DNA of 64,000 nucleotides from a virus, in IMG/VR virus record IMGVR_UViG_3300022187_000017, positions 41,778 to 105,777 of that record, one strand, 5' to 3'. Shown here one piece after another: positions 508-49,091 of the stretch (the stretch's first letter is position 1; every line of letters begins with the position of its first letter). The translations under genes were made by a program, and so were the position numbers. The notes below the pieces were generated by a model. That model saw only the letters and a program-made list of their open reading frames with translations. It was not told the origin of the DNA and did no database searches.

Positions 508-514
508 ACTTTGA

Positions 515-1246
515 TTATGTTACAATTGTTAAAACTCCTGCATTACTCCATACAGCTCCTGATGGCAACCCTGCAGCCGAAGTAGGTATTGATGTAATTG
601 ATAAGTTGTTACAGAAAAAAGAATTAGTTCTATTAGTTGTAATGTAGGCTCCTGCAATAAAAGTAGTGGCATGGTTTACAATATTATATCTTCCACCCAT
701 GATCCCTGAATCGCTCATACTTGGATTTATGCTATTGCTATACCCACCACCAATAAATCCATATGCACCATTTATGGTATGGCTATATCCACCAGCTATG
801 ACAGATTTATTTCCAGCTGCATCGATAGTACTATTCTTCCCACCTCCTATGGTAGAGTTTAGTCCTGCAGCTGAATTATTATTTCCTAATGATACTGATT
901 CAATTCCTGTAGCATCATTATCTCCTCCTACTGCAAATGACCTAGCTCCAGTAGCTCCTGATGCTTCATCTGCAAAGGTTTGGGAAGTTAAATCTACTGC
1001 ATTAAGTCCTACAGGGCCAAAATTAGCTGCTGTTCTTCCTAGAATTACTAATCCCTCTCCATTGCCTTCATCAAGTAATTCTGTTCCACCACCACCTGAT
1101 ATTGATGTGTTTTCATCTGCTACTGCTCCTATTGAGCTTTCTAGTGCTGATGATATATCTTCTCTTATAACATCAGTCCCTTGGACATTTGATCCAATTT
1201 TCTCAATAACTCTTATTAGAAGTTCTGTGTTTGAATTTATAGCCAT
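515..1246 (-). CDS. Tail-fibre-like protein with YadA-type head repeats
   Basis: 243 aa. The N-terminal 50 residues are helical (LLIRVIEKIGSNV...) and are followed by a Gly/Ser linker. Residues about 85-185 carry degenerate 14-16-residue repeats of the type S-x-A-x-G-x-x-N-x-A-x-G, as in trimeric autotransporter (YadA/Hia) head domains, which fold as a trimeric left-handed beta-roll. The C-terminus (LPSGAVWSNAGVLTIV) is the short module that ends many phage fibre proteins. A trimeric receptor-binding or fibre-tip role is the best reading. The opposite strand is also open over most of this gene because of its low-complexity composition, but it has no coding features. Confidence 0.7.
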   Translation of the reverse strand: MAINSNTELLIRVIEKIGSNVQGTDVIREDISSALESSIGAVADENTSISGGGGTELLDEGNGEGLVILGRTAANFGPVGLNAVDLTSQTFADEASGATGARSFAVGGDNDATGIESVSLGNNNSAAGLNSTIGGGKNSTIDAAGNKSVIAGGYSHTINGAYGFIGGGYSNSINPSMSDSGIMGGRYNIVNHATTFIAGAYITTNRTNSFFCNNLSITSIPTSAAGLPSGAVWSNAGVLTIVT

Positions 1247-7542: not shown

Positions 7543-8331
7543 TTACATCACCCAATCCTCTACTATATCTGGCTCTACTCCTGCCTCCAGAGCTTCCTGT
7601 ACTGACTTGATAGATTCTCCATTCTTGAATGTATGGCCTATCTGCTCCTCTACAGCTACATACTCAGCTAATAACTCTGGGTTCTCTTTACCTGCTATTA
7701 GGAGTGCATTGAATGGACTGAAGATACAGAAACAACATGACAGCCTTGGCATCCCCAGATCATATGCTTTATGATACTCCAGATTGTTACCCTTGATCAC
7801 ATCCCAGACCTTCTTAGAGCTCCAGTCATGTACAGGTAGATAATCTATCACTGTCCTCTTCTTAGTGGTTAACTGCTTATTTAATGACTCCACCTTTCTC
7901 TTAGATCTGGCTGGAGACTCCTCTGCTCTGAATCCAAATACATACAGGATCTTACAAACTCCCATCTCTTTAGTTAGCTTAGTTACTACTCTAGCACCCG
8001 GGCCACGCTTGAAATCACTGGTACACCATCTCTGTTGGCTACTTGGCCACTTACCTCTCCTCACTGCATACTCCAGAAGATCCTCCTCATAGCCATCCTT
8101 ATCTCTTCTCTTGCTGTAATAGGTCTTTAGTCCCCAGTGATCAGATTGTCTCTTAACTAGCTCCTTTGTGCCTTTCCACTCAACCTTACCTAGATCCTGA
8201 TGTGACACTACTAACTGATCCAGAGGATAGCACTGTTCCAATGCCATCTGAACCATTTGCCAGACAGACACTAGAGAGTCCTTCCCTCCAGATGAATTGA
8301 TGATCACTAGATCATAGTCAGCTAAGATCAT
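7543..8331 (-). CDS. PP-loop ATPase, PAPS-reductase family (first paralogue)
   Basis: 262 aa. NSSGGKDSLVS (residues 12-22) is the SGGKDS PP-loop of the adenine-nucleotide alpha-hydrolase superfamily, here of the PAPS-reductase/DndC kind. It is followed by a central WCTSDFKRGPGARVV block and a C-terminal cysteine group (LSCCFCIFSPFNAL) that could hold a metal or cluster. These proteins adenylate a substrate, often before sulfur transfer. Whether the substrate is sulfate, a tRNA or DNA cannot be told. It overlaps the 8328-8687 gene by 4 nt. A second, divergent PP-loop gene lies at 9083-9979. Confidence 0.75.
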   Translation of the reverse strand: MILADYDLVIINSSGGKDSLVSVWQMVQMALEQCYPLDQLVVSHQDLGKVEWKGTKELVKRQSDHWGLKTYYSKRRDKDGYEEDLLEYAVRRGKWPSSQQRWCTSDFKRGPGARVVTKLTKEMGVCKILYVFGFRAEESPARSKRKVESLNKQLTTKKRTVIDYLPVHDWSSKKVWDVIKGNNLEYHKAYDLGMPRLSCCFCIFSPFNALLIAGKENPELLAEYVAVEEQIGHTFKNGESIKSVQEALEAGVEPDIVEDWVM

Positions 8332-8687: not shown

Positions 8688-8710
8688 AATTGTTGTTTTT
8701 AATTCTGGTG

Positions 8711-8742
8711 TAAATATAGTTACTATATATTTACTGTGCAAA
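8711..8742 (-). promoter_or_regulatory. Promoter for the PP-loop ATPase operon
   Basis: TTTG-20 nt-TATATTTA. The 20-nt spacer (CACAGTAAATATATAGTAAC) is identical to that of the promoter at 36702-36733, 28 kb away. Confidence 0.75.
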
Positions 8743-9082: not shown

Positions 9083-9979
9083 CTAATATTTACTCATTAC
9101 ACAATGGCCATGGGACATCTTGTAGTCCACCAGCTCCTGCTCTGTCATATGCCCAAACTTCTCCAGAGCTGTTTTAAGGACTTCTGGGAGAGGATCTTTC
9201 TTACCCCACACACCAAGATTCTTTTCTTCCATGTGCTCATTAGCCTTCATCTTATTGGCCTCCAGCTTCACCCAGAGGTCATATGATGCTCTGTCATATC
9301 TATACAAGTACAATAACTCCTGCAGGCTCATGAATGGACATAAGATGCAATTGGAAGGATAAGGTACCTTCTCACCTACACTGGTGATGTAATCCTGACA
9401 TGCTTGCCGATCCATACCCTCTTCAATCAATGGATACTGCTTATTGATGCAAGTATTAAACCATTTCATCCCACTGGAGCCATTCTCAGAGGCTCTCTTC
9501 TCTTCTCCCTTAGCAATGCCTATAAGTACATTGATCTTCCCGTACTTCTCAGCAAACTCATAGAATGCTGCTTTCCTACCATACTTCTCAGTGTTGTAGT
9601 TGTGATGTACATACAGCTCTAGGAACTTGTAGATAGGCCTGATCTTCAGGTTATCTGTACAAGTCTTAGGGAATGCCTTAGATCCAACTGTATTTTTGCT
9701 CTGGTAGAATTTGATCAATCCACCCTTCCAGCTATTGGATGCCCATAGATCAGGCTCCAGATGAAAGAATGGGATCTTATGCTCATCACATAGCTCTTCT
9801 ACTCTCTCCAGATACTTATCAGTATGATCATGCTCATTTCTGGTATTAGCCATAACCACAATAAGATCACCCTTCACATATTTGGCCTTGAATACTGGAT
9901 CATGTAAACACTTAAAGAGGATGGCAGTTGAATCCTGCCCTCCTCCATAAGATAACATTGTAAGCTCTTTCTTCTCCAT
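9083..9979 (-). CDS. PP-loop ATPase, PAPS-reductase-like (second paralogue)
   Basis: 298 aa. YGGGQDSTA (11-19) is a PP-loop variant seen in phage PAPS-reductase-like proteins. Later blocks are VVMANTRNEHDHTDKY, a central KTCTDNLKIRPIYKFL and a C-terminal PSNCILCPFMSLQELL, where the cysteine pair resembles metal or cluster ligands. It probably activates a substrate by adenylation. Sequence similarity to the 7543-8331 protein is limited to the fold, so they are old paralogues rather than a recent duplication. It overlaps the 9979-10302 stop by one base (TAATG). Confidence 0.75.
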   Translation of the reverse strand: MEKKELTMLSYGGGQDSTAILFKCLHDPVFKAKYVKGDLIVVMANTRNEHDHTDKYLERVEELCDEHKIPFFHLEPDLWASNSWKGGLIKFYQSKNTVGSKAFPKTCTDNLKIRPIYKFLELYVHHNYNTEKYGRKAAFYEFAEKYGKINVLIGIAKGEEKRASENGSSGMKWFNTCINKQYPLIEEGMDRQACQDYITSVGEKVPYPSNCILCPFMSLQELLYLYRYDRASYDLWVKLEANKMKANEHMEEKNLGVWGKKDPLPEVLKTALEKFGHMTEQELVDYKMSHGHCVMSKY

Positions 9980-10516: not shown

Positions 10517-10556
10517 AAAAAAGGGAGGATTTACGATCCATTACTGGATTCCTCCC
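10517..10556 (-). terminator. Intrinsic terminator of the tmRNA gene
   Basis: On the minus strand GGGAGGA (10550-10556) pairs with TCCTCCC (10523-10529), enclosing an inner ATCCA/TGGAT stem, and is followed by six T (10517-10522). It lies just after the tag stop codon and closes the tmRNA transcript. Confidence 0.75.
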
Positions 10557-10850
10557 ATACGTCTTATGCAGCCATTCTAAATGGTGCAGTAGATTGTTGT
10601 ATAACTTCTGGAGTTATAATTAAAATAGCCTCCTTTATCGCTTCTTTACGCTGTCAAAACCAGTCTACCCCATGTTCCCAGATATAGTGCTGGGATCACT
10701 TCCACTTTTTAAACAACCTCCTTCTGGAGATAGTGGAGTAGATGGGAGTCGAACCCATGTCCAAACATAATCCACAATAATATCAACGAACTACTTTGCT
10801 GTAAAGATAGTAAATCTATCGCTTTGTATATGATTTCGTTTTAATGAATT
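10557..10850 (-). ncRNA. ssrA: Circularly permuted (two-piece) tmRNA
   Basis: On the minus strand the acceptor piece comes first: GGAC (10759-10762), T-arm with 5-bp stem and TTCGACT loop (10742-10758), acceptor strand CTACTCC (10735-10741) and discriminator A. After a 63-nt spacer (10672-10734, including the discriminator) the coding piece begins with GGGGTAG (10665-10671), then ACTGGTTTTGACAG, matching the tmRNA 5' end. GGGGTAG pairs with CTACTCC over 7 bp and has a G3-U70 wobble, the alanine identity element. A tag frame ends A-P-F-R-M-A-A-stop (10564-10587). Positions 10643-10649 can pair with 10801-10807 (7 bp), a possible P2-type helix, though its placement is not standard. CCA is not encoded (ACTA). 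tmRNA with SmpB releases stalled ribosomes and tags the product. The outer limits, especially the 5' end, are estimates. Confidence 0.82.
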
Positions 10851-10872: not shown

Positions 10873-10894
10873 TTATACCCGATAAGGTATAATA
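10873..10894. repeat. 22-bp palindromic repeat, copy 1
   Basis: Identical to 10914-10935. Its core is an inverted repeat TTATACC-CGATAA-GGTATAA. It lies upstream of the tmRNA and may be an operator or an RNA hairpin in the tmRNA precursor. Confidence 0.65.
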
Positions 10895-10913
10895 TATGAT
10901 ACATTAACCTATA

Positions 10914-10935
10914 TTATACCCGATAAGGTATAATA
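10914..10935. repeat. 22-bp palindromic repeat, copy 2
   Basis: Second copy, 41 bp from the first, about four helical turns. It overlaps the -7 position (TATTATAC, 10928-10935) of a weak promoter candidate whose TTG is at 10956-10958. Confidence 0.65.
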
Positions 10936-10958
10936 ACTCACTCATAAATTACACACAA
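10928..10958 (-). promoter_or_regulatory. Possible tmRNA promoter
   Basis: TTG-20 nt-TATTATAC on the minus strand; the -7 box matches only partly. Overlap with the palindromic repeat would suit a regulated promoter. The rest of the 10303-10948 gap shows no reading frame. Confidence 0.3.
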
Positions 10959-14206: not shown

Positions 14207-14237
14207 AATATGATATTTATTTGTTGTTAATATGGTG

Positions 14238-14269
14238 CTAAAATATAGTTAATATATTTACTGTGCAAG
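14238..14269 (-). promoter_or_regulatory. Promoter for the 13550-14206 operon
   Basis: CTTG-20 nt-TATTTTAG with CACAGTAAATATATTAAC in the spacer; overlaps the 3' end of the 14258-14509 gene. The leader is AACAACAAATAAATATC. Confidence 0.65.
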
Positions 14270-14755: not shown

Positions 14756-15589
14756 TCATTTATTTTTATCTACCAGTACCATCCCATAGTCATTTACTCC
14801 CTCTGGGATCTGTAGGCCCTGCTTCTTGATCATCTCATTATTCTTGAATCCACTATAATTCACCTGATGATGCCATCTCTCATACCTCCAGACTACCTTC
14901 ACAACATCAGGATGCTGCCTCTGGAGACTCTCAGCAAACTCTTTCCTGTTATTGGTGTCTTTATATACCTCATCAGTATTGCCTCCCTTCATCTTCATTG
15001 TTGTGGCCTTCTGCTGTATGAATGCATTGAATAGGACTGTTGGATGCCCATCCTTCAGGATCCTAAGACATAGATCTGTATCCTCATTGTACTTACCTCT
15101 CCACCTGTACTCCAGATCATTCTTGATCAATGTGCAGCTGTAGATCCTGTTATTCCTTGAGAATGCTGGCATGACTGTCTTGGCCTTGGCAAAGTGATCA
15201 TACTGGAATCCTGCTAGTGCTATGTTCTCATATCGATCTACAAAGATCTCTGCACACCTGAAGATAGTGCCATCTGTCACCTTCACCTGCAGGTTCCTGT
15301 TGAGTCTATTGAACTGCTCTATATTGTCATCTAATAACCAGTGCCTCTCATGGCCTTCTGCAATAGAATGCTCCCAGACATAGTTTCTAGCTGGAATGGA
15401 TCCCTGCCCTAAATTACTGAATGGGAGCTTTAATATCTTCTCTGGATCAATTACCTCAGCATAGCTATCATACTCCTGTGGCTCCACAACTATACGATAA
15501 GGGACTTTCATCCTCTCCAGAGTCTTAGATGTCATCCTTGACTTCCATCTGCCTTTAGAAATGATATAAACTGGATATTTAGGATTCAT
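14756..15589 (-). CDS. TET/JBP-associated-type glycosyltransferase
   Basis: 277 aa. YIISKGRW (8-15), YRIVVEPQEYDSY (31-43), GSIPARNYVWEHS (63-75), HWLLDDN (83-89), a K-Y-N-E-D-T-D block and a late YERWHHQ follow the TET/JBP-associated glycosyltransferase family seen in phages and basidiomycetes. The DDN is the likely metal/nucleotide-sugar site. Related phage enzymes are thought to glycosylate hydroxymethylated pyrimidines in DNA. The base-hydroxylating or hydroxymethyl-nucleotide-forming partner is not in this window. It overlaps the next gene by 11 nt. Confidence 0.7.
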   Translation of the reverse strand: MNPKYPVYIISKGRWKSRMTSKTLERMKVPYRIVVEPQEYDSYAEVIDPEKILKLPFSNLGQGSIPARNYVWEHSIAEGHERHWLLDDNIEQFNRLNRNLQVKVTDGTIFRCAEIFVDRYENIALAGFQYDHFAKAKTVMPAFSRNNRIYSCTLIKNDLEYRWRGKYNEDTDLCLRILKDGHPTVLFNAFIQQKATTMKMKGGNTDEVYKDTNNRKEFAESLQRQHPDVVKVVWRYERWHHQVNYSGFKNNEMIKKQGLQIPEGVNDYGMVLVDKNK

Positions 15590-23486: not shown

Positions 23487-23515
23487 GATGTACGATTTTT
23501 GTTGTTATCTGGGTG

Positions 23516-23547
23516 TAAATATATAACCAATATATTTATTGTGCAAC
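23516..23547 (-). promoter_or_regulatory. Promoter for the 22842-23486 operon
   Basis: GTTG-20 nt-TATATTTA; spacer CACAATAAATATATTGGTTA. The leader contains AACAACAAAAATC before ATCATG. Confidence 0.7.
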
Positions 23548-36671: not shown

Positions 36672-36701
36672 TGTGATGTTTTAATTAGATGTTTATAGGA
36701 G

Positions 36702-36733
36702 CAAATATAGTTACTATATATTTACTGTGCAAC
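36702..36733 (-). promoter_or_regulatory. Promoter for the 36438-36671 operon
   Basis: GTTG-20 nt-TATATTT-G, full match at -7. The spacer is identical to that of the 8711-8742 promoter. Confidence 0.8.
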
Positions 36734-41764: not shown

Positions 41765-42807
41765 AATGTTTCCTCTAGTATTTTTTTACCTTCTTTATGA
41801 AATCCCTTTCTCTCCTCATCCTTCTCACAGTATCCATCCCACTCTTCCAGAATGGATGTCTTGGTGAATGCAGCAAAGCTATCTGCTACCTCAGCATCTA
41901 CAGCTACAGTCTCAACCTTCTCTTCTTTGAAAGTAACCTTGATCCCCTTTGATTCTATTAGAGACTTAGGTACATTCTTGAATTTATCCTTAGATCCTTC
42001 AAATCTAAACCTGATCTTATCCTTCACATCTGCATAGTCCTTAACCAGTTTATTGATCTTGGCCTTGGTAGTATCATTTAGATCTACATCTACAGTCAAA
42101 AATAGGCTCTCTCCCAGACTTTCCTGCTCCATTGACTCATCAGTATAGAAGTAAGTAATACCCTTATTAGTATCCTCTCCAAAGTTGTTCTGGAGTAGAG
42201 ATCCTATATAGGTAATATTACCAAATTCCTGCTTATCATGGTAATGACCAACTAAAACTTTACCAAATTTCTTGAAGGTATCTCTAGGTAGTGTCTCACT
42301 TACCTCAGATCCATCATTATTTCTAACCCCATCAATAGATAAGTGAGTTAATAATACACTCTTCCTTGGAATTCCTATTTTATTTAATTCCTCCAAATAT
42401 GGAAGGAGTGCATCCTTCTCCCTGAAGTATGGTAGTTGGAATACTGTCCATCCTGTATCCAATGTAATCTGACCTATACCTGTCTCTAGATCCATAGCTG
42501 GATGCCATCTGTATATATCTAGGTATGAATTCTTGGATGTGTAATCGATCTTATCATGATTACCCGGGATGCACATCAGAGTAACACTCTTATTATGTGC
42601 ATAGTCCAAGATCCTAGTAAAGGCCTGCATTGTATTGAATGACTGAGTTTTCCTATCTGTAAAGATATCACCTATAACAAATAGTAGAGTAGATCCCTTC
42701 TCAACTGTCTTATCGATACTCAGCCTCATAGCAGCCTCTACCTCAGAGATATTTTTATCTGAGAGGTGAGGATCTGCTACTACTGAGAATGCTAGTTTCT
42801 TCTCCAT
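41761..42807 (-). CDS. sbcD: SbcD/Mre11-like nuclease (T4 gp47 type)
   Basis: 348 aa. Metallophosphoesterase motifs are D12-x-H14 (VADPHLS), GD at 46-47, GNHD at 82-85, H155 and GHYH at 187-190, which together hold two manganese ions. It is the nuclease subunit partnering the gp46-like ATPase, here with recA between them. It overlaps the ssDNA-binding protein gene by one base and recA by 4 nt. Confidence 0.9.
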   Translation of the reverse strand: MEKKLAFSVVADPHLSDKNISEVEAAMRLSIDKTVEKGSTLLFVIGDIFTDRKTQSFNTMQAFTRILDYAHNKSVTLMCIPGNHDKIDYTSKNSYLDIYRWHPAMDLETGIGQITLDTGWTVFQLPYFREKDALLPYLEELNKIGIPRKSVLLTHLSIDGVRNNDGSEVSETLPRDTFKKFGKVLVGHYHDKQEFGNITYIGSLLQNNFGEDTNKGITYFYTDESMEQESLGESLFLTVDVDLNDTTKAKINKLVKDYADVKDKIRFRFEGSKDKFKNVPKSLIESKGIKVTFKEEKVETVAVDAEVADSFAAFTKTSILEEWDGYCEKDEERKGFHKEGKKILEETL

Positions 42808-45509: not shown

Positions 45510-48500
45510 TTATAAAAACTTTACTAATAACCCTTTCATTCTTGATGAGATCATCAACTCATTGTGTGACTTCCACTGATCAGGCATCTGGACATTACCT
45601 CTCATGATAACCATCCTGCCACTATGCCTCTCAAGCATAGTTTTCATGTCACACTCAATATCCACCCATTCCATCTTATCCTTCTCCTCATTATGAATAT
45701 TCTTCTTGTATGAATATTTGAACCTACTATCTCCTTTCTCATTTACCAGCTCTCCACTCCAGATCCTCACATGAATGATATCTGTATTGTGTAGTAGCTC
45801 CAGCATAGCATATGGATCTCCCTTCTTAGTTGTTCTGATCAGCACATTATTAACAAGGCCTATAACTACAACTGGCCTAGTTTTACTGAGTGTATTGAAC
45901 TGATCACCATCTACATAATCATCCAGATAGGAGTAGAACTGATCATCCTCACTGACTATAGTTTTATAGTTCAAATTGGATAGCTTACATACCTCATACT
46001 GCTTAACTCCCCAGTATGGATTGAATGTACTATTGCTGTGGTATTCCTCTAAGATATCCTCCTTAAATATCTTCTCATAGATATCCTGCATTACTACAGC
46101 TCTCCTACATATAGTATCCTTGATTATGCCATACATCTCATCAAATGCTCCTGCTAATGTTAGCTGAATCATTGTCCTTTTATTTACTGCAGTCACCTTA
46201 CTGCCTACCCTCTCTTTATTGAACTCCTTCATTCTGTCCCAGAATTCCTTTATTGAGAAGAATTGGCCATTCTCATCTCTATCCAGCACAATTGCCTCAA
46301 CTGACATATCTCCAATGAATTTAATCTTACTGAGATCCCAGTATATGGTATTTTTGTCTAGATCATAGGTGAAATGACTGGTAGACTTATTTATGTTTGG
46401 AGGAGATAGTGTGATTTTAGTGCTCTTGGTTAATTCTGATATGAAATTAGCTATCTTCTCATCATCTGAGTACTCAAATGCTGTGATCCAGAATTCTAAT
46501 GGATAATGCACCTTAAACCAGTTGCAGAAATATCCAATTACTGAATATGCTGCAGAGTGACTCTTGTTAAATCCATACCCTGAGAATACCTGTAGTTTCT
46601 CCCAGATGGCTTTGGCCTCATCAGGATCACATCCATTTCTTTCAGCTCCCTTGATGAATTTGGATCCATACTCATCCATCTTCTTCTTGATCTTCTTACC
46701 CATTGCCTTCCTGACACCATTAGCCTCAGCTAAGGTGAATCCTCCTAGTACCTGTACAGCCTTCATAATCTGCTCTTGATACACATAGAGTCCATAAGTC
46801 TCTTCTGTTACCTCCTTGAGTCTATAATCATATTTTGGCTGCTTTTCACCATTTTTGAGTAAGATATACTCAGTATGAGACTTGGAGGCCATGGCACCCG
46901 GTCTGTAAAGTGCAGTAGCTGCAATTAGATCTGACATCTGCTTTGGCTGCATGCTTACTAAATATGCAGTTAATCCTGAAGATCCAAACTGGAATACATC
47001 CTGAGTCAGTCCCCTGCAGAAGGTATTATATACCTCTGGATCATTTAATGGGATCTCTTCAGTCTTAATCTTGATACCATGATTCTTCTCAACCAAATTG
47101 ATCATATTCCCAATCTTGGCCATCTGAATAGTAGATAAGATATCCTCCTTTAGATATCCTGCATCATCTAGCTCCCCACCTTCCCATTCTGACACCAATG
47201 TTCCATCTTCTCCAACCCTTAATGGTATCTGTCTCTTGATTCCCTTCCCTATCTTAGGTGCAATAATAGTAGCACATGCATGTACAGATCTATTCTTTAG
47301 GGATCCTATTAGACTGGATATGTCATTTATTGCTGGATAGTACTTCTTAGTGAATTGAATGAGTCTCTTATCACTGGAGCTCCCTATCTTCTTGAAGATG
47401 TCTATAAAATCTGACTCTGAATCATCAAATATCTTTGTTAAGAAATTGATATGCTCATTAGTTCCTAATCCATAGAATCTAGATAGTTCCTTCAGAGCTG
47501 ACTTTAACTTCAATGTTCCATAGGTACCCACTTGACATACAAATCCTTCTCCATATCTATCTTTGATGTAGTCTATAACTGCCTCTCTTCCATCACTGGC
47601 AAAATCCACATCGATATCAGGAAGGGATGTTGTTACCCTACTCTCATCCAGAAATCTCTCAAATAGCAGCTCATACTCCAATGGATTCACTTTAGTAATC
47701 CCTAGACAGTATGATATTAATGATCCAGCTGCAGATCCCCTACCCGGGCCAACCTGTATCCTATTATCCTCTGCCCATTTGATGATATCCCACAGTATTA
47801 AGAAGTAGTCAATTACTTCACCTTTCTTGATAAGAGCTCCCTCCTTCTTGATCCTTTCAATGACTTCCTCCATAGGATATATATCAAAGTCAATAAGTCT
47901 CTCCAGTCCTGCAGATATTAAATCCTTGAATAGTGCCTCATTGTCTGGGTATGACTCTTTCTCTATCTCTGTCATCTCATACTTTGGGAGGAATCTCTTA
48001 CCTTCCTCTATCTGAAAATCAACTGCCTCATTTATGCTCTTGAATGCAGCTATTGAATTATGCATCACCTCCCTTAATTTTGGCTTCTTATCCTCATCAA
48101 AATACTGAGAGAATTGATGTACTATATCATCATAAGGTAGTAGGCTATGATTCTTAGTCATTGTGCCTCTGCTCCCTCCATGAGTTACCAATATCTCCTG
48201 TAGATGCTCCTGATCCTCCTCTAAACAATAAGAGTCATTCATCAGCACTCCCTTAACCTCTCCATGATAATTATTCATAAACCACTTCATATTCTGCTGC
48301 TCCTTCTCATGATCACCCTTTATGTAATTCTCAGTGGTAGTATATTGATAGTATGCCTGATCTGCCTCTTCATTAATGGAGTTTAATATTACATCATCCA
48401 CTACATGAGATGGCTGTATAAGTGCAATGGTTCCAGCTAATCCTTTTAGTATATCTTCATGCCTCAGCATCTCTGATGATAGGCTAGTATTATGTAGTAG

Positions 48501-49091
48501 TAGATTCTCCCATCCCTCCTGATTTACAGCGAATAATTTTAGATTGTAGTAACCTCCTATTGCCTTAATTGGGAACTGGACTCCTAATATTGGCTTTATT
48601 CCAACATCATTACATGCATGAGAGAACTGGATCACTCCAGCTAATGTCTCCTTCTCACATATCCCTAGAGATGTATATCCTAAGAATTTGGCCTTCTTTG
48701 CCCATTCCTTATACTCATGCATACCACACATGATCTCATGCTTACCATGGATACCTAAATATATTCTAGATTCTTCTGGAATTGGTGACATCCATTGGTA
48801 CTCTCCAAAGTACCTCAATAGAGTCAGCTCTTTGAGTTTAGTCTTATTTACTGGAGTATAGTAATACCATCCTCCAAACTCAAATACGAAGTAGTCAATT
48901 TTATCTTCATCTCTCAGCTTCTTACCATAAGGATCTAAAATAAGTTGAATCTTCCCTCCTTTAAGATCTAGGATCTTATCATTAGTTGGAGGTACCAGAT
49001 AGAATATCTTATCATTTACCCTTAGCCTTCCTGCTGCTAGGTTTTGGTGAACTAATAAGTTGGAGTCCAGCCATTTTTTCAGTCTTTGCAT
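45510..49091 (-). CDS. dnaE: DNA polymerase III alpha subunit (DnaE type)
   Basis: 1193 aa, C-family polymerase. An N-terminal extension (1-105) precedes a PHP domain (110-190) whose first metal histidine is Tyr111 (YLGIHGK) and whose ITD is ICE, so it is probably inactive. The palm holds GPGRGSAAGSLISYCLG (448-464) and PDIDVDF (491-497) with the catalytic Asp pair; a third Asp is likely in YLKEDIL. Fingers (YVYQEQIMKAVQVLGGFTLA), a FNKSHSAAYS block and a C-terminal OB fold (RPVVVIGLVNNVLIRTTKKG) follow. Replicative polymerase; proofreading probably comes from the DnaQ-like gene. It overlaps the preceding gene by 80 nt. Confidence 0.93.
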   Translation of the reverse strand: MQRLKKWLDSNLLVHQNLAAGRLRVNDKIFYLVPPTNDKILDLKGGKIQLILDPYGKKLRDEDKIDYFVFEFGGWYYYTPVNKTKLKELTLLRYFGEYQWMSPIPEESRIYLGIHGKHEIMCGMHEYKEWAKKAKFLGYTSLGICEKETLAGVIQFSHACNDVGIKPILGVQFPIKAIGGYYNLKLFAVNQEGWENLLLHNTSLSSEMLRHEDILKGLAGTIALIQPSHVVDDVILNSINEEADQAYYQYTTTENYIKGDHEKEQQNMKWFMNNYHGEVKGVLMNDSYCLEEDQEHLQEILVTHGGSRGTMTKNHSLLPYDDIVHQFSQYFDEDKKPKLREVMHNSIAAFKSINEAVDFQIEEGKRFLPKYEMTEIEKESYPDNEALFKDLISAGLERLIDFDIYPMEEVIERIKKEGALIKKGEVIDYFLILWDIIKWAEDNRIQVGPGRGSAAGSLISYCLGITKVNPLEYELLFERFLDESRVTTSLPDIDVDFASDGREAVIDYIKDRYGEGFVCQVGTYGTLKLKSALKELSRFYGLGTNEHINFLTKIFDDSESDFIDIFKKIGSSSDKRLIQFTKKYYPAINDISSLIGSLKNRSVHACATIIAPKIGKGIKRQIPLRVGEDGTLVSEWEGGELDDAGYLKEDILSTIQMAKIGNMINLVEKNHGIKIKTEEIPLNDPEVYNTFCRGLTQDVFQFGSSGLTAYLVSMQPKQMSDLIAATALYRPGAMASKSHTEYILLKNGEKQPKYDYRLKEVTEETYGLYVYQEQIMKAVQVLGGFTLAEANGVRKAMGKKIKKKMDEYGSKFIKGAERNGCDPDEAKAIWEKLQVFSGYGFNKSHSAAYSVIGYFCNWFKVHYPLEFWITAFEYSDDEKIANFISELTKSTKITLSPPNINKSTSHFTYDLDKNTIYWDLSKIKFIGDMSVEAIVLDRDENGQFFSIKEFWDRMKEFNKERVGSKVTAVNKRTMIQLTLAGAFDEMYGIIKDTICRRAVVMQDIYEKIFKEDILEEYHSNSTFNPYWGVKQYEVCKLSNLNYKTIVSEDDQFYSYLDDYVDGDQFNTLSKTRPVVVIGLVNNVLIRTTKKGDPYAMLELLHNTDIIHVRIWSGELVNEKGDSRFKYSYKKNIHNEEKDKMEWVDIECDMKTMLERHSGRMVIMRGNVQMPDQWKSHNELMISSRMKGLLVKFL

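Follow-up and report, generated by a model that had tools for sequence, protein, structure and literature searches.

The phage DNA analysed here, a window of 64,000 nucleotides (positions 41,778 to 105,777 of IMG/VR record IMGVR_UViG_3300022187_000017), very probably carries a phage-encoded, circularly permuted tmRNA gene, whose product would be processed into two pieces, charged with alanine and used in ribosome rescue; its sequence details suggest an origin within a Bacteroidota-type tmRNA. tmRNA frees stalled ribosomes. The two halves of the gene lie in permuted order, they pair with each other and covary among relatives, the tag frame is conserved, and the phage is kin to Bacteroidota phages.

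Gene order and structure of the tmRNA locus

Inspection of the minus strand finds the acceptor-piece half (T-arm and acceptor 3′ strand) read first and the coding half (acceptor 5′ strand, D-region, P2 and tag) read second (Table 1). A cmscan search of the window against all Rfam models returned a single above-threshold match, RF04321 (tmRNA_permuted) at 10779-10564 on the minus strand, with a score of 56.1 bits against a gathering score of 47 (E = 3.2e-8). Both the sequence and this match confirm what a sequence-only reading had proposed, that the 3′ elements of a tmRNA stand ahead of its 5′ elements on this strand. The locus has an acceptor piece 5′ of the coding piece, complementary acceptor strands with a G3-U70 pair, a T-arm and P2 with covariation support, and a short tag frame with a stop codon, as in RF04321. 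The one-piece order is absent, with only one copy of each half in the window, and the two sequence elements that mark the halves are hardly expected in shuffled sequences. The one-piece model RF00023 reached at most 24.4 bits against a threshold of 47 across the whole record, which places the gene outside that class. None of the alphaproteobacterial, betaproteobacterial and cyanobacterial models (RF01849, RF01850 and RF01851) exceeded its gathering score, the best class-specific model being beta_tmRNA at 31.5 bits, far under its gathering score of 84. The Infernal search suggested in the sequence-only reading succeeded for RF04321 and fell short for the three class models, and the tmRNA finder ARAGORN did not call the gene in the window. 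The identification as a permuted tmRNA is backed by the Rfam match together with base-pair covariation across relatives.

Table 1. Features of the permuted tmRNA locus, in window coordinates.
Feature	Position	Strand	Basis
-7-like promoter element TATCTTTAC	10801..10809	-	upstream of the tmRNA, without a clear -33 element; putative function
P2 helix, 3′ side, TTATGTTT with a single bulged U	10763..10770	-	opposite 10652-10646 in the helix, with compensatory changes among relatives
Acceptor piece core (GGAC, T-arm, CTACTCC, discriminator A)	10734..10762	-	RF04321 alignment, sequence
GGAC	10762-10759	-	sequence
T-arm, loop TTCGACT	10758-10742	-	RF04321 alignment, sequence
Acceptor 3′ strand CTACTCC	10741-10735	-	RF04321 alignment, sequence
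Discriminator A	10734	-	sequence; CCA not encoded
Spacer, 62 nt, two hairpins in fold	10672..10733	-	sequence, fold; presumably removed
Acceptor 5′ strand GGGGTAG	10665..10671	-	pairs 7/7 with 10741-10735, G3-U70
D-region ACTGGTTTTGAC and P2 5′ strand (C)AGCGTAA	10646..10664	-	RF04321 alignment, motif count, covariation
Hairpin TATAACT-CCAGA-AGTTATA, predicted resume codon in loop	10600..10618	-	in nine compared sequences; two compensating pairs
Tag frame PEVIQQSTAPFRMAA ending in TAA; CCA start codon by homology	10564..10611	-	alignment with tags of 16 relatives
3′ hairpin and U6, terminator	10517..10556	-	fold -17.1 kcal/mol, z -2.33

After the spacer, the coding half runs from GGGGTAG (from 10671) through ACTGGTTTTGACAG to a frame ending ATG GCT GCA TAA at 10564; GGGGTAG is followed by AC and then by TGGTTTTGAC at 10662-10653 on the minus strand. 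The Met-Ala-Ala-stop ending had been read correctly from the sequence, as had the 7-bp acceptor pairing with its G3-U70 wobble, but the spacer had been given as 63 nt, a figure that includes the discriminator, and is 62 nt long (10733-10672). When the whole stretch is folded, the two acceptor strands pair and two hairpins form in the spacer. The terminator previously noted 3′ of the gene is seen in the fold as a hairpin with its stem at 10556-10523 and a U6 tail, and is absent from the output of a simple terminator scan. Between the tmRNA and a GP88-like gene, a palindromic element, TTATACCCGATAAGGTATAA, occurs in two copies 41 nt apart (10873-10948).

Covariation was scored on 17 gap-free sequences, which were chosen for a common one-base bulge in P2. 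Among these, the fraction of paired cells was 100% for the acceptor stem, 98.8% for the T-stem and 90.4% for P2, and 10 of 20 pairs had changed on both sides (three in the acceptor, five in P2). The covariation score was 0.487, compared with 0.119 +/- 0.021 in shuffles (0/500) and at most 0.136 for slid structures. The search patterns fixed letters in the acceptor (GGGG, CTCC), T-arm and D-region; the three variable acceptor pairs and P2 are free of this fixing and bear most of the signal. In members outside the 17, P2 appears by eye to be mostly paired without the bulge.

The predicted tag of the window, PEVIQQSTAPFRMAA, was read by homology, aligning codon for codon with the tags of sixteen relatives, which are of the type GKVVQMYNPSLRAVA or SKVINFFPAPLRAVA. 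In the last seven tag codons, single-base codon differences were synonymous in 168 of 322 comparisons, against an expected fraction of 0.295, these comparisons being pairwise among 17 members and mutually non-independent. The putative resume codon, CCA (Pro), is unusual and is assigned solely by homology. A shorter tag beginning at GCA or at a later CAA was ruled out, as the relatives align from CCA/GGC with the same upstream context. The predicted resume codon lies in a hairpin loop with two compensating pairs, among nine sequences picked for having the hairpin, whose stem is partly coding. A hairpin of the form AACU nnnnn AGUU around this codon is found in many of these phage tmRNAs.

Relatives and host of the phage

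The gene is a member of a family with about 30 distinct relatives, comprising IMG/VR contigs, human-gut crAss-like phages and the isolate MA9V-3; several of the phages concerned have links to Bacteroidota hosts. A pattern scan for the identical acceptor yielded three viral contigs in which the halves stand in this order, and a looser pattern found 29 contigs, which with some crAss-like phages gave 27 distinct sequences, the window included. By a separate route, blastn reached an isolate, the Chryseobacterium phage MA9V-3, and crAss-like phages of the gut. RF04321 scored above threshold in every pattern-found contig scored (more than 20 viral contigs), in MA9V-3 (64.7 bits) and in the crAss-like phages cr50_1, cr114_1, cr53_1 and cr10_1, and below threshold in cr125_1, cr52_1, cr60_1 and cr115_1. 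ARAGORN calls the tmRNAs of MA9V-3 and of those crAss-like phages it detects permuted (tmRNA*). The GenBank tmRNA features of NC_055900 (1451-1900) and other crAss-like phages coincide with the ARAGORN permuted call and are longer than the RF04321 match. At 510-1091 (minus strand) in crAss-like phage cr113_1, an annotated endonuclease gene, HNH-like by eye, lies between the acceptor and coding pieces of a permuted tmRNA and overlaps the acceptor piece; the T-loop of cr113_1 looks altered, and the blastn match of cr56_1 is laid out in the same way.

The Cellulophaga phages phi38:1 and Calle_1 have one-piece tmRNAs, and the Bacteroides phages SJC03 and DAC19 gave no RF04321 match. The ARAGORN-predicted tag of the two Cellulophaga phage genes is an odd one, AQIEANMEAVNAILNLEVAVGV, and the gene is unannotated in the phi38:1 record. 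A permuted tmRNA with the GGGGTAG acceptor was found in none of 84,980 bacterial and archaeal genomes searched for that acceptor. The control cell Bacteroides ihuae matched RF00023 and not RF04321, and we know of no Bacteroidota cell with the permuted arrangement.

It is highly improbable that the locus is a functionless product of decay or misassembly. The window does come from a single metagenomic assembly in which ARAGORN makes no call, and no second assembly confirms the locus because two contigs from this virus or a very close one, which gave no match, appear not to cover it. However, the locus has kept an intact T-arm, P2, tag frame and terminator along with all seven acceptor pairs, and its order recurs in about 30 distinct records, one of them an isolate.

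The nearest isolate to the phage is MA9V-3, by its DNA polymerase (36.6%), DnaB helicase (34.7%) and a 657-aa structural protein (27.5%), with further matches for these three in phages of Cellulophaga, Tenacibaculum and Bacteroides; a fourth phage protein searched had no match. Among terminases whose host is known, the nearest come from Bacteroides phages, at about 35%. Several genes are preceded by TTGCACAnTAAATATATnGnnnnTATATTTRC, which we take to fit the Bacteroidota -33/-7 promoter pattern, and the -7 element of the tmRNA also stands about 30-40 nt ahead of several other gene starts. Shine-Dalgarno-like sites precede only 6 of 86 starts. The hosts of its relatives, the Bacteroidota-like promoter and the scarce Shine-Dalgarno sites support the earlier assignment to the Bacteroidota phages and suggest that the phage infects Bacteroidota.

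Elsewhere in the window, the long promoter-like motif TTGCACAnTAAATATAT...TATATTTRC is repeated at 8710-8741, 14237-14268, 23515-23546 and 36701-36732 (minus strand). The phage-encoded DNA polymerase (45510-49091, minus strand) resembles DNA polymerase III alpha and is matched best in Bacteroidota phages. Two phosphoadenosine-phosphosulfate-reductase-like genes and a TET-associated glycosyltransferase (TAGT) gene (7543-8331, 9083-9979 and 14756-15589, minus strand) hint at modified phage DNA.

The literature places permuted tmRNA in three main bacterial clades, whose alpha, beta and cyano models were merged into RF04321 (PMC11915505). Two-piece tmRNA has also been published in phages, where it accounts for 53 of the 133 unique tmRNA structures; 50 of the 53 come from marine or aquatic samples (PMC9004378). 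The paper on MA9V-3 (PMC13120357) and that on Calle mention a tmRNA, its form not given, and the GenBank records of the crAss-like phages and MA9V-3 list one with no form stated. A search of the openly readable literature brought up no account of permuted tmRNA in Bacteroidota phages. The novelty claimed in the sequence-only reading holds to the extent that no published case from a Bacteroidota phage was found; it is lessened by the two-piece tmRNAs of other phages (PMC9004378), by ARAGORN itself calling the crAss-like and MA9V-3 tmRNAs permuted, and by records that already list a tmRNA.

Proposed processing and function

The gene may be transcribed from its own putative promoter into a precursor in which the two acceptor strands pair. 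Removal of the 62-nt spacer would fall to host RNase P and other tRNA-processing enzymes, and the 3′ end at 10734 would be finished by a CCA-adding enzyme. The two RNAs would then be held together by the acceptor and P2 helices, and alanine could be loaded via G3-U70. Host SmpB would be needed, because none was found in the phage record, which may be incomplete. With it, the RNA may release ribosomes stalled during infection, for example on cleaved messages, and the stalled proteins would receive PEVIQQSTAPFRMAA rather than the host-type GENNYALAA; what becomes of proteins so tagged is a matter of inference.

The RNA might instead be a decoy that binds SmpB or the ribosome and blocks host trans-translation, like the tag-less DS6A-like RNA. 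There is a precedent in the phage DS6A, where host tmRNA can be inhibited by a tmRNA-like molecule of the phage (work cited in PMC4131195 and PMC11915505), and a phage SmpB was not found, but the conserved tag frame and stop, with their excess of synonymous change, would be needless for a decoy, and this reading is improbable.

The 3′ ends of ssrA are a frequent target of integrases. Retention of a host ssrA 3′ end as attP beside an unrelated 5′ fragment would fit this habit, and a 29-nt T-arm/acceptor stretch of the locus recurs unchanged in one-piece tmRNAs of Lachnospiraceae and Oenococcus. Nevertheless, a search for tyrosine integrases found none in the 105,777-base record, and the halves pair and covary across relatives, which is not expected of an attP. 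Such an attachment site is largely refuted and has only a very slight chance of being correct.

Origin of the permutation and comparison with known systems

The permuted phage genes were compared with one-piece tmRNAs from viral contigs with the tags GENNYALAA or GETNYALAA, which by their tags we take to be of the Bacteroidota type. In common with the phage forms they have the Gly resume context, GTTTGGAC and GACAGC, as well as the D-region, GUUUGGAC and a missing CCA. Two sequence sets were collected with patterns that fix part of the compared letters; GTTT, AGC and the Gly resume context are outside those constraints. GTTT before GGAC is present in 17 of 30 phage sequences, 5 of 5 Bacteroidota one-piece sequences and none of 35 classic permuted ones. 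The corresponding counts are 15/30, 5/5 and 2/35 for AGC after the D-region, and 23/30, 5/5 (chosen by tag) and 2/35 for the Gly resume context. The 29-nt stretch was rejected as a Bacteroidota marker, given its exact copies in Lachnospiraceae and Oenococcus.

By GUUUGGAC, the AGC after the D-region, the lack of an encoded CCA and the Gly resume context, the phage forms appear to resemble one-piece Bacteroidota tmRNA more closely than the known permuted classes. Because of these details, a permutation event separate from the alphaproteobacterial, betaproteobacterial and cyanobacterial ones is favoured. It is modestly probable that a host-type one-piece gene was permuted independently in Bacteroidota phages, that the permuted form spread through crAss-like, MA9V-3-like and other families, and that the host ALAA-ending degradation tag was thereby replaced by a tag family of the phages' own (-KVI...APLRAVA).

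That the phages took over a working permuted tmRNA from one of the known permuted lineages, for instance via pelagiphages, is possible but rather unlikely. The gene order is that of the known permuted classes, and beta_tmRNA is the best class model, but far under its gathering score. The pelagiphage form has an encoded CCA and an Ala resume codon, and the counts for GTTT and the Gly resume context also argue against acquisition. A 41-column tree is compatible with one permuted clade (p 0.197), whereas a 61-column tree, which includes compensating stem columns, rejects one clade of all permuted forms (p 0.006); both are mostly without resolution. With too few columns, the tree was dropped as proof of separate origin, and searches of plasmids and phages with the pelagiphage tmRNA found no further outgroup.

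If the phage class does resemble Bacteroidota one-piece tmRNA, permutation may be easier than thought, and permuted tmRNA could persist in viruses even where their hosts retain one-piece tmRNA. MA9V-3 is an isolate in which two-piece processing could be tested directly, its host being thought to make only one-piece tmRNA. The phage's reason for swapping the host degradation tag is a question that this raises.

The window gene is like the permuted tmRNAs of RF01849, RF01850 and RF01851 in gene order, in its acceptor, T-arm and P2 pairing, in G3-U70 and in the tag in the second piece. Unlike them, it has two bases, not three, between the acceptor and TGG, and UUUUGAC in place of UUUCGAC; CCA is not encoded, the resume codon and tag family differ, and no class threshold is reached. 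The two-piece tmRNAs of Melnitz and the pelagiphages are likewise phage-borne and permuted (PMC9004378), but are of the alphaproteobacterial kind, and that of HTVC008M has the tag ANFNEYALAA and an encoded CCA. With the one-piece Bacteroidota type the gene shares D-region TGGTTTTGACAGC, GTTTGGACGAGGG, an unencoded CCA and the Gly resume context, whereas that type has the one-piece order, a middle part of about 345 nt and an ALAA-ending tag. The tmRNAs of the crAss-like phages and MA9V-3, which ARAGORN calls permuted, are of the same gene order and family as the window gene, with longer spacers in the crAss-like phages (93-214 nt in those measured, compared with 62 nt).
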